DNA of 64,000 bases from Neiella litorisoli (GTDB lineage Bacteria > Pseudomonadota > Gammaproteobacteria > Enterobacterales > Neiellaceae). Location of the stretch: the NCBI RefSeq assembly GCF_014773395.1, contig NZ_JACXAF010000003.1, positions 1 to 64,000 of the forward strand. The letters are read 5' to 3'. Numbering within the stretch: the first letter of the stretch is position 1; each line of letters starts with the position of its first letter. Position numbers and translations under genes: made by a program. Of the stretch, positions 14,974 through 33,705 are shown in pieces. Below the pieces are notes generated by a model. The model worked only from the letters and a program-made list of their open reading frames with translations. It searched no databases and was not told the origin of the DNA.

Positions 14974-16249
14974 AATGGCAAATTCAAATAATCCGCTAGT
15001 CTAACCGAAGCAGGGGGTAGAGCTGAACCTCTTGAGCAGAAAATGCTTCTACGGCCCATTACTCGCTTTGATCAAAAGTGGCATATGGCGATAACAAACC
15101 TCACCTCTTGCTGACGCTCAAGCACATCCATGTATCGCTCTGCATGCGGCATCCATGCCGCCTGAAGCAGCAAGTGGCGAGGTTTGCTATCACTCAAGGG
15201 AATGCCTGCACATCCGGTTCGAACGCTAGTTGGAATTGGGGGCTAGGTGACAAAATGCGCGGAACTGTCTAGAGCGGAATCAAGTGTCCAATATCAAAGC
15301 CTCTGCAGCAGGGAAGCTGCAGTGGAGCCATCAAGGATGATTCCTCGGCGTCTTTGATATTGGATACTTGATGCAGCTAGGCCCGCAGCCAAATCAATCA
15401 GCCCTAAGTCGGCAGCAAACAATGCCCTTCGGTGACGCTCGAGTCCATCCATGGATCGCTCTACACCCGACATCCATGTCGGCTGAAGCACCTCAGTGCA
15501 TTATTTGCTCCCTCTTGTGTCATCGCGGACCACCTATAACACAGCGCTCATACGGTTCGGGAGTAGTTTGGAAGTTGGACCTAGGTGACAGAATGCGCGG
15601 AACTGTCTAGAGCGGAATCAAGTGTCTATATCAAAGCCTCTGCAGCAGGGAAGCTGCAGTGGAGCCATCAGGGATGATTCCTCGGCGTCTTTGATATTGG
15701 ATACTTGATGCAGCTTGTGCCCGCTGCCAAATCAATCAGCGCTAAGTCGGCAGCAAACAATGCCCTTCGGTGACGCTCGAGTCCATCCATGGATCGCTCT
15801 ACACCCGACATCCTTGTCGGCTGAAGCACCTCTGTGCATTATTTGCTGCCTCTTTGTGTCATCGCGGATCACCTACAACACTGCGCTCATACGGCTCGGG
15901 AGCAGCTTGGAAGTTGGGCCTAGGCGAAAAAAATGCGCGGAACTGTCTAGGGCGGAATCAAGTATCCAATATCAAAGCCTCTGCAGCAGGGAAGCTGCAG
16001 TGGAGCCATCAGGGATGATTCCTCGGTGTCTTTGATATTGGATACTTGATGCAGCTGTTGTCAGCAGCTGATACAACCGTTGCTCAAAGCACATTTGCCA
16101 ATCACCGCCACAATCACCAAATTCACCGCTCATGCGCCTAGCACAGCGTAAGTGCTTTCAGTATAATTGCCCGCCGTTATTGATACCGTCGACAAATTAG
16201 TTGCCAATCAGGCCAAACCGATTGGCTTTAAAGCTGAGAAAGACACGTT
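14974..16249. repeat. Non-coding repeat block, right copy, with about 339-bp tandem units
   Basis: No supported gene. At about 15085-15200 lies a reverse-complement-like copy of the left-block unit near 391-490. From 15261 a unit of 338-340 bases repeats: starts at 15261, 15599 and 15939, the last truncated at about 16055. Each unit contains an inverted-repeat element: AAGTGTCCAATATCAAAG on the left arm and CTTTGATATTGGATACTT on the right, about 70 bases apart. CATCCATG-type hairpins occur at 15146-15161, 15467-15482 and 15805-15820. Bases 16060-16249 form the leader of fmdB-aspS, with TATAAT at 16162-16167. Confidence 0.85.
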
Positions 16250-29741: not shown

Positions 29742-29817
29742 GGGTTGTTAGCTCAGTTGGTAGAGCAGTTGACTTTTAATCAATTGGTCGCAGGTTCGAA
29801 TCCTGCACAACCCACCA
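29742..29817 (+). tRNA. tRNA-Lys (UUU), copy 1
   Basis: A 76-base cloverleaf with acceptor GGGTTGT/ACAACCC, anticodon loop CTTTTAA (anticodon TTT) and encoded CCA. First of three identical copies; the cluster lies between cpoB and nadA as in E. coli. Confidence 0.98.
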
Positions 29818-29878
29818 CTTACTTCATCTCACCTGCAAACTATCAAGTTGTTCTTGCAACTTGATGACAGCGAAATAC

Positions 29879-29954
29879 GGGTTGTTAGCTCAGTTGGTAG
29901 AGCAGTTGACTTTTAATCAATTGGTCGCAGGTTCGAATCCTGCACAACCCACCA
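29879..29954 (+). tRNA. tRNA-Lys (UUU), copy 2
   Basis: Identical to the first copy, 61 bases downstream, CCA encoded. Open reading frames drawn across copies 2 and 3 are artefacts of this duplication. Confidence 0.98.
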
Positions 29955-29971
29955 CTTTCGCAACTCAATAC

Positions 29972-30047
29972 GGGTTGTTAGCTCAGTTGGTAGAGCAGTT
30001 GACTTTTAATCAATTGGTCGCAGGTTCGAATCCTGCACAACCCACCA
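29972..30047 (+). tRNA. tRNA-Lys (UUU), copy 3
   Basis: Identical to the other two, only 17 bases after copy 2, CCA encoded. No clear intrinsic terminator follows before the moaA leader. Confidence 0.98.
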
Positions 30048-30149
30048 CTTTTACTTCCTCGTTTCTTCGCGCTAAACTCAAGCAACAATTAGTTCACTCC
30101 GAAGCTTCGTGACCTAAGCCATTTAATGCCAATGATATGGTTTGCAAAT

Positions 30150-30229
30150 GACATGGTGACGTAGCCGAGACCGAGAGTCTCCGGGTTGTGCTTGAAAAGG
30201 CTCAGCCTCCCGTGCTTGGAAAGGGGTAA
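30150..30229 (+). promoter_or_regulatory. Candidate molybdenum cofactor (Moco) riboswitch before moaA
   Basis: The leader has a GAGAC/GTCTC hairpin (30167-30171, 30177-30181), a longer AGCC/GGCT pairing (30163-30166 with 30199-30202), CCGGGTT, and a 3' GCCTCCC...TTGGAAAGG segment. These blocks resemble the conserved parts of the Moco RNA motif as I recall it. The ribosome-binding AAGGGG (30221-30226) lies inside the last block, so translation control by ligand is plausible. Identified by eye, not by covariance search. Confidence 0.65.
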
Positions 30230-30230
30230 G

Positions 30231-31208
30231 ATGTCACTATCCGATGCTTTTGGTCGGCAGTTCCACTATGTGCGGCTGTCGATAACCGATGTATGCAACT
30301 TCAGTTGCAACTATTGCCTGCCTGATGGTTATCAGTGCGATGGCGATCGTAACTTTCTCAACCTCGATGAAATTCGCCGCGTGGTTCGTGCTTTTGCCGA
30401 GCTGGGGGTGGAAAAGATCCGCGTCACCGGTGGCGAGCCGACACTGAGAAAAGACCTGCCACAAATCATTGAGCAGTGCGCCAACACGCCGGGCATCCGG
30501 AAAGTCGCACTGACCACCAATGGTCATAAGATGGCGCGCCACTTGGCCAACTGGCAATCGGCCGGCCTCAACGCCATTAACGTCAGCGTCGATAGCCTCA
30601 ATCCACACGTCTTTCACCAAATCACGGGCCACAACTCATTAACCGATATTCTCGATGCCGTTGATCAGGCCCAACGAATGGACTTCGACTCGATTAAGCT
30701 CAATGCCGTGCGGATGAAGGGCATTAATGCCCATGAACTTGAAAGTTATATCGATTGGTTAAAAGACAAAGACATTTGTTTGCGCTTCATTGAATTGATG
30801 GAAACTGGCGATAATCGTGAATTTTTCCGCAATCATCACAGCTCTGGTCAGGAAATTGTTGATGCCCTTATTCGCCAAGGGTGGCAACGGATAGAACGGA
30901 GCATTTCTGCTGGTCCTGCGCAAGAGTACGGCCATCCAGACTGGCAAGGACGGGTTGGCGTGATCATGCCGTATAGCAAAGATTTCTGCGCCAGCTGCAA
31001 TCGTTTGAGAATGTCTTCGCGCGGCGACTTACATTTGTGCTTATTTACCGAAAGCGGCCTGAGTGTGCGCCACCTGATGCAATCGGATGCGGATCTGCCG
31101 CTACTGAAAAATCGTTTGCAAGAATTACTGGTAGAAAAGCACGCCAGCCATTATTTACCTGAGCACCAGGTTGGCTCGACAAGGCATTTGGCCTCGATTG
31201 GCGGTTAG
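30231..31208 (+). CDS. moaA: GTP 3',8-cyclase MoaA
   Basis: A 325-residue radical-SAM enzyme for the first step of molybdopterin synthesis. The N-terminal cluster motif is CNFSCNYC (about 23-30), with 'VTGGEPTLRKDL' for SAM binding. The C-terminal cluster cysteines are in 'CASCNRLRMS' and 'LHLCLF'. The usual C-terminal GG is present ('SIGG'). The start is ATG 30231, which yields 'MSLSDAFGRQFHYVRLSIT'; an upstream GTG would run through the leader RNA. napF starts two bases after the stop. Confidence 0.93.
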   Translation: MSLSDAFGRQFHYVRLSITDVCNFSCNYCLPDGYQCDGDRNFLNLDEIRRVVRAFAELGVEKIRVTGGEPTLRKDLPQIIEQCANTPGIRKVALTTNGHKMARHLANWQSAGLNAINVSVDSLNPHVFHQITGHNSLTDILDAVDQAQRMDFDSIKLNAVRMKGINAHELESYIDWLKDKDICLRFIELMETGDNREFFRNHHSSGQEIVDALIRQGWQRIERSISAGPAQEYGHPDWQGRVGVIMPYSKDFCASCNRLRMSSRGDLHLCLFTESGLSVRHLMQSDADLPLLKNRLQELLVEKHASHYLPEHQVGSTRHLASIGG

Positions 31209-32913: not shown

Positions 32914-32950
32914 TTGACCTGATCAGGGCTTTTTCTTAATATACGCCGGC
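32914..32950 (+). promoter_or_regulatory. Promoter upstream of the tRNA-Ser repeat array
   Basis: TTGACC (32914-32919), a 17-base spacer and TAATAT (32937-32942), then a GC-rich ACGCCGGCC discriminator typical of stable-RNA promoters. It lies before the repeat array, so the repeats should be transcribed together with the tRNA-Ser gene. Confidence 0.7.
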
Positions 32951-32969
32951 CTTGAGGGATTGCCCTTGC

Positions 32970-33391
32970 ATGAGCTACATGGATAAAAAAGCAGACAATT
33001 CGATTTCAATGGTGAGGTGTCCGAGTGGCTGCTAAGCAGCGCAGCGAAAGGATAGTCACGCAAAGCGTGCTCCCAGCCACCATTGAGTAGTTAGACATGA
33101 GCTACATGGATAAAAAAGCAGACAATTCGGTTTCAATGGTGAGGTGTCCGAGTGGCTGCTAAGTCGCGCAGCGAAAGGATAGTCACGCAGAGCGTGCTCC
33201 CAGCCACCATTGAGTAGTCAGCCATGAGCTACATGGATAAAAAAGCAGACAATTCGATTTCAATGGTGAGGTGTCCGAGTGGCTGCTAAGCAGCGCAGCG
33301 AAAGGATAGTCACGCAAAGCGTGCTCCCAGCCACCATTGAGTAGTTAGACATGAGCTACATGGATAAAAAAGCAGACAATTCGATTTCAAT
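32970..33391 (+). repeat. Three 127-bp tandem repeats carrying tRNA-Ser 5' fragments
   Basis: Units begin at 32970, 33097 and 33224 (ATGAGCTACATGG), and a fourth, partial unit at 33351 runs into the real tRNA-Ser gene. Each full unit holds the first 21 bases of that tRNA (GGTGAGG...GTGGCTG), then a different insert instead of the rest. The insert closes with CAGCCACC, which pairs with GTGGCTG; CACGC/GCGTG forms an inner hairpin. Copies differ by only a few bases. The region is non-coding. It looks like duplication of the tRNA leader together with a palindromic insert. Confidence 0.9.
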
Positions 33392-33479
33392 GGTGAGGTG
33401 TCCGAGTGGCTGAAGGAGCACGCCTGGAAAGTGTGTATACGGCAACGTATCGAGGGTTCGAATCCCTCCCTCACCGCCA
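33392..33479 (+). tRNA. tRNA-Ser (GGA)
   Basis: An 88-base tRNA with acceptor GGTGAGG/CCTCACC, long variable arm (TATACG...CGTATC), anticodon loop CTGGAAA (anticodon GGA) and encoded CCA. It is the only complete tRNA of the array and is followed by a terminator. Confidence 0.97.
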
Positions 33480-33489
33480 TTATTTAGAA

Positions 33490-33514
33490 AGCCCGCGTGT
33501 TAACGCGGGCTTTT
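33490..33514 (+). terminator. Terminator after tRNA-Ser
   Basis: An 8-bp stem (AGCCCGCG/CGCGGGCT) with a TGTTAA loop and a short T-run, 10 bases after the tRNA. Confidence 0.85.
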
Positions 33515-33539: not shown

Positions 33540-33705
33540 AGTTGAAAGCTCCTCAATGCAGCTTGGGAGGGTGAGAAGCCTCGTGGGTTCGAGTCGAGCG
33601 CGCAGCGCGAGACAACATCGCCAATGGCGATGGCCCGAAGGGAAGGAGCGAAGCGACGCATCATCCCTCCCTATGTTTAGCTACTTTGCCGCCATTATTC
33701 AAAAG
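33540..33705 (+). repeat. Degenerate tRNA-Ser-like 3' copy with palindromic inserts
   Basis: After the terminator come GGGTTCGAGTC, then several short palindromes (GCGCGCAGCGCG; CATCGCCAATGGCGATG), then ATCCCTCCCT and GCCGCCATTATT. These pieces match the T-arm and 3' flank of the real tRNA-Ser, interrupted by the inserts. It cannot fold as a normal tRNA. It seems to be a decayed 3' half, the mirror of the 5' fragments upstream. Confidence 0.5.

Follow-up and report, generated by a model that had tools for sequence, protein, structure and literature searches.

The locus analysed here raises the question of why a tRNA gene should be preceded by several copies of its own 5' end. In the window, which is the whole 64,000-nucleotide stretch of Neiella litorisoli DNA that was analysed, three 127-bp direct-repeat units stand between a promoter-like site and the gene for tRNA-Ser(GGA).

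Organisation of the array

Each unit is composed of a 42-base leader copy, the first 21 bases of the tRNA and a 64-base insert (Table 1). Bases 1-21 of tRNA-Ser(GGA) recur exactly in all three units and are followed each time by C, a CACGC-nnn-GCGTG hairpin and CAGCCACC, which ends the structured part of the insert. An earlier reading made from the sequence alone, here called the sequence-only reading, had described three such 127-bp units with 21-base tRNA copies and a palindromic insert, and both elements are present. The two other copies are 96% and 99% identical to the reference copy, and Tandem Repeats Finder (TRF) reports 3.5 copies of period 127 with 96% matches over 32969-33412. Recent or ongoing amplification had been proposed on account of this near identity. 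The near-identical copies agree with it, but the unit design itself is older, as it recurs in other genera with diverged inserts.

Only one tRNA-Ser(GGA) gene was found in the genome carrying the window. A search with the unit yielded four matches in the 4.32-Mb genome at E-values up to 0.001, all of them inside the array. Among the 56 tRNA genes examined in this genome, 5' copies of at least 14 bases within 700 bases were seen for Ser(GGA) only. Elsewhere in it (L202, G000:C2:118200-120000), a copy of bases 44-77 of tRNA-Met lies behind the two tRNA-Met genes.

Table 1. Features of the tRNA-Ser(GGA) locus, in positions of the window
Feature	Position	Strand	Basis
Sigma-70-like promoter TTGACC-17-TAATAT, then ACGCCGGC; 5' of the entire array	32914-32942	+	pattern scan
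Leader copy 1 (CATGAGCTACATGG...TTTCAAT)	32969-33010	+	repeat analysis
Unit 1, copy of tRNA-Ser(GGA) bases 1-21	33011-33031	+	tRNA-copy search
Unit 1, insert	33032-33095	+	sequence, pattern scan, antisense scoring
Unit 1, hairpin CACGC-AAA-GCGTG	33057-33069	+	inside unit 1 insert
Unit 1, antisense half GCGTGCTCC-CAGCCACC	33065-33081	+	inside unit 1 insert
Leader copy 2	33096-33137	+	repeat analysis
Unit 2, copy of tRNA bases 1-21	33138-33158	+	tRNA-copy search
Unit 2, insert (most diverged copy)	33159-33222	+	repeat comparison
Leader copy 3	33223-33264	+	repeat analysis
Unit 3, copy of tRNA bases 1-21	33265-33285	+	tRNA-copy search
Unit 3, insert	33286-33349	+	own-genome DNA search
Leader of the real tRNA (leader copy 4)	33350-33391	+	repeat analysis
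tRNA-Ser(GGA); targets of the antisense half are bases 15-21 and 24-32	33392-33479	+	tRNA search
Terminator-like hairpin AGCCCGCG...CGCGGGCTTTT behind the tRNA	33489-33513	+	read from sequence; present in folds
RtT RNA (RF00391) behind tRNA-Ser	33551-33680	+	76.3 bits, gathering 45

The hairpin behind the tRNA is missing from the list of terminator-like sites returned by the pattern scan. Three of the four sites on that list are the unit hairpins themselves (33057-33069, 33184-33196 and 33311-33323), read on the minus strand with a T-rich tail. The RtT RNA behind the tRNA had been overlooked by the sequence-only reading; it is followed at 33689 by a decayed copy of the 3' flank of the tRNA (CCGCCATTATT). 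Further tandem repeats occur in the window, namely a 338-bp repeat at 15243-16056 (2.4 copies, 94% matches) and a 93-bp repeat with 100% matches that contains the last two of three tRNA-Lys(TTT) genes at 29742-30047. A Moco riboswitch (RF01055, 71.6 bits) lies at 30085-30242 at the start of an ORF. By its translation, we take this ORF to be MoaA-like, followed by presumably ferredoxin-like and quinolinate-synthase-like ORFs.

Occurrence in other genomes

A DNA search of 59 genomes, comprising the window's own and 58 relatives, detected the array in the same genus (G001, G002) and in the same family (G004). Neiella holothuriorum carries the same units as G001 (NCBI assigns Neiella-like bacteria to the family Echinimonadaceae), and another member of the family (G005) has the tRNA and the promoter and no unit. 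The first pattern scan of named genomes required the tail CARCCA and returned at least 119 stretches, most of them without tRNA-Ser nearby. Among the matches listed, units beside tRNA-Ser(GGA) were found in Ferrimonas, Thalassotalea, Aeromonas and other Aeromonadaceae, so that Ferrimonas, Thalassotalea, Aeromonas and Neiella are the named hosts. Including the window and three relatives, this first collection contains at least 32 units in at least 20 records. Since the tail was part of the pattern, these units were left out of the claim on tail conservation. They overlap with the second set described below (for example, L118 with G001, L115 with L228, L120 with L238).

The second scan covered the order and left the tail free; it required the fragment with bases 7-21 fixed, followed by any base but A. 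It gave 23 matches in 13 of 394 genomes, all 23 with C as the next base and all 23 being units, while a reversed-pattern control matched in three of the 394 genomes. A GGYYG variant of the Ser pattern returned the same 23 matches and nothing new. For 19 of the 23 units, a tRNA-Ser(GGA) gene lies within 1.2 kb downstream. Three others (L233, L237, L239) belong to one tandem run that reaches the contig end. The last (L234, on contig C6 of genome G390) is an orphan. It is preceded by a pair of tRNA-Ser genes and by a terminator-like hairpin, and the 1.2 kb downstream of it contain no tRNA. A chance origin of the units was rejected by this order-wide scan and by the shuffle tests given below.

Among 25 tRNA-Ser(GGA) loci (26 tRNAs) of other genomes, a diverged 5' copy was seen at one, L033, in a genome of another family (G046). 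Here the diverged unit lies 114 bases before the tRNA, the tRNA has GGCCG where the unit has GGACG, and the tail, judged by eye, has lost its complementarity to the D-loop. In phages, no match extended past the 21 tRNA bases. A plasmid search matched 117 records, and the best 10 of these 117 match only over the tRNA part and what follows. At two loci (L051, L093), reading frames begin shortly 3' of the tRNA-Ser(GGA) end. By eye we take these frames to be integrase-like, in which case integration may also take place at this end of the tRNA. Among the literature titles and abstract openings listed, mostly from outside subscription journals, none described 5' half-tRNA repeats.

The antisense tail

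With AA bulged out, GCGTGCTCC-CAGCCAC (33065-33080) of unit 1 is the reverse complement of bases 15-21 and 24-32 of the tRNA. Judged by base complementarity, the tail is thus an imperfect antisense to the D-arm and anticodon 5' strand of the unit's own tRNA. Complementarity of the tail to GTGGCTG of the tRNA had been noted before; it is confirmed, yet the antisense covers more of the tRNA than this motif alone.

The antisense score of 20 of the 21 distinct inserts of the second scan was reached by only 0-4 of 300 shuffles, and for each of these 20 inserts tRNA-Ser(GGA) scored above 31 other kinds of tRNA from the genome carrying the window; as the inserts are related, the 20 passes do not represent 20 independent events. 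The sole failure among the 21 is L234, the orphan not followed by a tRNA. Of the 32 units of the first collection (among the matches listed), 26 contain the anticodon-stem strand CACGC. A hairpin at the position of CACGC/GCGTG is retained, as is the tail, whereas the bases that separate fragment and hairpin diverge. Covariation in the stem was counted with a simple script over 52 related and partly duplicate rows with some register shift, and this count is not relied on.

The unit follows the local tRNA

In 35 of 38 units, representing five acceptor types, the tRNA fragment begins with the same seven bases as the next tRNA. The searches had left the first six bases free, bases 7-21 being fixed or nearly fixed. 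Over the 20 bases just 5' of the fragment, ungapped agreement is 64%. In F. kyonanensis, F. sediminum and F. sediminicola, a tRNA beginning with GGTGAG and one beginning with GGTTAG are each accompanied by a unit of their own type. One tRNA-Ser(GGA) of F. futtsuensis (L120, 4916-5003, with the same sequence in L238) has GGTGAGG at its 5' end and CCTAACC at its 3' end, which leaves a mismatch in the acceptor stem. Going by these two strands, it is likely the product of an exchange between neighbouring tRNA-Ser genes of two types. Other tRNA-Ser(GGA) copies (L229) are present in G390, the genome of L238.

Units at tRNA-Tyr

In Ferrimonas aestuarii, 34 of 97 tRNAs examined (of 101 found by the tRNA model) have a nearby copy of at least 14 of their own bases. 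In the family member G004, the corresponding number is 2 of 57 tRNAs examined; its Ser(GGA) gene is preceded by two units and followed by three repeats of 208 bp that contain RtT. The tRNA-Tyr cluster of F. aestuarii (L351, G373:C63:88400-90500) consists of three genes, with three 5' half-tRNA units that are specific to Tyr and have similar leaders. These units are built from bases 1-20 of the tRNA, with changes in the second and third unit, an ATCAGAC-TG-GTCTGAT hairpin on the anticodon stem and TTGGCCAC. All three are antisense to tRNA-Tyr, with scores of 14.5-15.5 (0 of 300 shuffles each) versus 8.0-8.5 against Ser. The 5' copies at Asn, Gly and Pro genes of F. aestuarii showed no significant antisense in the shuffle test. 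The Tyr-unit pattern matched in none of 355 genomes sampled over the order, a sample that did not include F. aestuarii.

The tail had also been considered as a remnant of the tRNA 3' end, with CTCAGCCACC resembling CTCACCGCCA. This explanation is not needed, as the Tyr units have a Tyr-specific antisense tail.

Transcription and predicted folding

Taken alone, the promoter-like site of the window does not exceed chance expectation (1 found, 1.2 expected). Nevertheless, the promoter named by the sequence-only reading has counterparts elsewhere, since in 17 of 26 loci with units the first unit is preceded by a TTGAC-like promoter with a GC-rich start region. In the interval from the last unit to the tRNA, a site with 8-9 of 12 bases matching the promoter consensus was found in 5 of 26. 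From this arrangement, the units probably belong to the tRNA transcript.

Folding was predicted for 26 unit-tRNA pairs. With the leader only, the tRNA's own acceptor pairs had a mean probability above 0.5 in 21 of 26. With one unit upstream, the 5' strand of the unit was predicted to take the 3' acceptor strand of the tRNA at above 0.5 in 20 of 26, and native pairing averaged 0.04. When the inserts were shuffled, unit-tRNA pairing was 0.56 versus the observed 0.73 and native pairing 0.26 versus the observed 0.04. Shuffled inserts are thus still predicted to displace much of the native pairing, and the fragment alone accounts for much of the predicted exchange. Above their own shuffle mean were 19 of the 26 pairs, but only 7 of 26 had at most 2 of 40 shuffles as high. 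If pairs more than 100 bases apart were forbidden, native pairing exceeded 0.5 in 18 of 26. For the pair of L149, native pairing remains at 0.88. The two Tyr pairs tested gave unit-tRNA acceptor pairings of 0.988 and 0.839.

For the window, a chimeric cloverleaf is predicted in which unit bases 1-7 pair with tRNA bases 84-78, the unit's CACGC with tRNA bases 44-40 and the antisense half with the tRNA's own bases 13-32. In a fold of the entire array, unit 2 takes the acceptor strand at 0.675 and native pairing falls to 0. Strand exchange is therefore a possible end state of the precursor in these models. The folding of single units, which had been put forward as a check, gave no stability above shuffles for the two window units (z -1.06 and -0.69). 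A self-folding mini-tRNA of the form GGUG...CACC appeared when RNA of the window was folded; as CACC is absent from this place in several other species, it was dropped as a general rule.

Regarding the tRNA-like decoys suggested earlier, such a role is possible in that the models predict a unit able to displace the tRNA's own 5' half. A decoy for RNase P is not supported by the make-up of the unit, which has no T arm and no acceptor 3' strand. ARAGORN and the tRNA covariance model recognised only the real tRNA at this locus and no unit.

Origin, action and rival explanations

The anatomy of the units, their taxonomic spread, their tracking of the local tRNA and their position before it can be read directly from the DNA. 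The unit represents the 5' half of tRNA-Ser(GGA), with the acceptor 5' strand, the D-arm 5' strand, the D-loop and mostly the anticodon-stem CACGC, and its second part is an imperfect reverse complement of the same half. It may have originated by foldback copying in a duplicated tRNA copy, with a template switch at the anticodon loop; the junction CACGCCTG|GCGTGCT of Thalassotalea would be an example. Unequal exchange could then have copied and homogenised the leader together with the unit. As for its action, units would be transcribed with the tRNA, and each would fold on itself while the RNA is young. As long as a unit is still attached, strand exchange could follow, in which the 5' half of the unit pairs with the 3' acceptor and anticodon strands of the tRNA while the antisense half occupies the 5' half of the tRNA itself. 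Maturation of tRNA-Ser would then be delayed or limited unless processing removes the array beforehand. That the array is such a cis-acting folding trap is our tentative choice of mechanism, suggested by the folding models and given a little less than an even chance.

Alternatively, the arrays may be a neutral by-product, which is almost as probable. Foldback errors in tandem tRNA copies would produce half-tRNA palindromes that are multiplied and homogenised by unequal exchange and are retained because they are nearly harmless; the match to the tRNA would be maintained by gene conversion and palindrome-templated mutation instead of selection. The patchy presence in 13 of 394 genomes, the many self-copies near the tRNAs of F. 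aestuarii and the F. futtsuensis tRNA that resembles an exchange product fit this explanation, as does the variation in rtT copy number between Salmonella isolates reported in PMC2658671. However, the agreement with the local tRNA drops at its mature 5' end (35 of 38 units versus 64%), which simple duplication would not give, and in an otherwise diverging insert the hairpin and the tail are retained. A further point against neutrality, from one case, is L234, where no tRNA follows although the contig continues and where the complementarity is absent.

If the units are cut from the precursor, they could also act in trans as small RNAs, a role that has been proposed for RtT and for the spacer RNAs found in tRNA precursors. 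Their position between promoter and tRNA is compatible with this, and according to PMC4986893 RT-PCR has detected RtT-family RNAs, for which a link to amino-acid limitation and the stringent response is reported. The conserved part, however, mainly matches the unit's own tRNA and the stretch from fragment to hairpin diverges, and a role in trans appears improbable. A tRNA-targeting element, one of the possibilities named by the sequence-only reading, would insert at the D-loop of tRNA-Ser and restore the gene by a duplicated 5' part. Direct repeats do flank each insert, with the junction after base 21 in Ser units (the search fixed bases 7-21). Yet no ORF of at least 60 codons lies over the array, neither a second copy in the genome nor a phage match past the tRNA bases was found in the searches above, and the Tyr units carry a Tyr-specific insert, which indicates that the insert is made from the tRNA. 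A mobile element is thus very improbable. An assembly artefact might be suspected because one contig of G002 ends inside the array; the array of the window is enclosed in a contig of 386,752 bp and its copies can be told apart, and the same design occurs in many independent assemblies, which refutes an artefact as the source of the design and leaves it next to no probability.

Should the folding trap be real, the arrays would constitute a built-in, tRNA-specific folding control of tRNA maturation. Otherwise, they would document, in a clear natural example, how foldback mutation and exchange have shaped tRNA loci.

Comparison with known systems

The RtT repeats are the closest known system. In E. 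coli, rtT repeats stand behind tyrT. At E-values up to 0.001, RtT was found in 84 of the 394 genomes, 64 of them above the family cut-off. Where a copy of the last 18-19 bases (14 in one repeat) was seen among the best 28 RtT loci, these loci lie behind tRNA-Tyr, tRNA-Pro and tRNA-Lys. In family f1, five of eight RtT loci have a tRNA, in all five cases tRNA-Ser, and the other three have none. A limitation of RtT to tRNAs with a long variable arm, suggested by this family, was rejected because RtT also occurs behind tRNA-Pro and tRNA-Lys. The 5' part of RtT was scored as antisense to the 3' half of its own tRNA in 25 loci, which are the 24 of the 28 with a usable 3' copy and the window. At 16 of these, at most 2 of 200 shuffles reached the score; all 14 Tyr loci, the Ser locus of the window and one of nine Pro loci passed, and eight Pro loci and one Lys locus failed. 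At Tyr and at the Ser gene of the window, RtT can therefore be read from its sequence as antisense followed by sense of the tRNA 3' half.

RtT repeats and units are alike in being tandem repeats beside a tRNA gene that join one tRNA end to an imperfect antisense with internal hairpins, and in having their own version at several tRNAs (Tyr, Pro, Lys, Ser). They differ in orientation. In the loci checked, RtT stands behind the tRNA, copies the 3' end and runs from antisense to sense, whereas the units stand before it, copy the 5' end (21 bases, 20 in Tyr) and run from sense to antisense. Tandem repeats beside a tRNA were found in the window and its relatives, and so was the tRNA end joined to antisense, a feature of RtT that is described here and is not one of Rfam's. 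The units do not reach the gathering threshold of RF00391 (45 bits) and contain no 3'-end copy behind the tRNA; the model gave no match to them at E-values up to 5, the downstream element being its sole match. By these sequence measures, the units are not members of RtT. According to PMC4986893, two RtT-family RNAs of Actinobacillus lie upstream of tRNA genes, so that position is no sharp divider; the use of the 5' or the 3' tRNA end is.

Functional spacers of tRNA precursors exist, such as 3'ETS-leuZ. Like them, the units would be a non-tRNA part of a tRNA transcript with a possible role of their own; unlike in such spacers, the complementarity found in the units is to the tRNA itself. Pseudogenes and truncated copies of tRNAs likewise derive from a tRNA gene copy with its leader. 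The units differ from them in replacing everything past base 21 by hairpin and antisense and in having, in 35 of 38 units, first seven bases that are those of the local tRNA.

It is also conceivable, though rather unlikely, that several gammaproteobacterial families possess tRNA-specific 'anti-tRNA' switches on the 5' side (units) and on the 3' side (RtT), which swap strands with their own tRNA and refold the unprocessed precursor into an inert chimeric cloverleaf. This would add a cis-acting layer of control over the supply of a single tRNA species. Whatever their action, one rule is common to RtT, at least at tRNA-Tyr and at the tRNA-Ser of the window, and the 5' units, in which the antisense follows the identity of the local tRNA (Ser, Tyr). 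In their sequence design, the units are a real, recurrent and tRNA-specific foldback element that mirrors RtT at the 5' end, and in our reading they are its 5'-side counterpart, with both held in the window around a single tRNA-Ser(GGA) gene.
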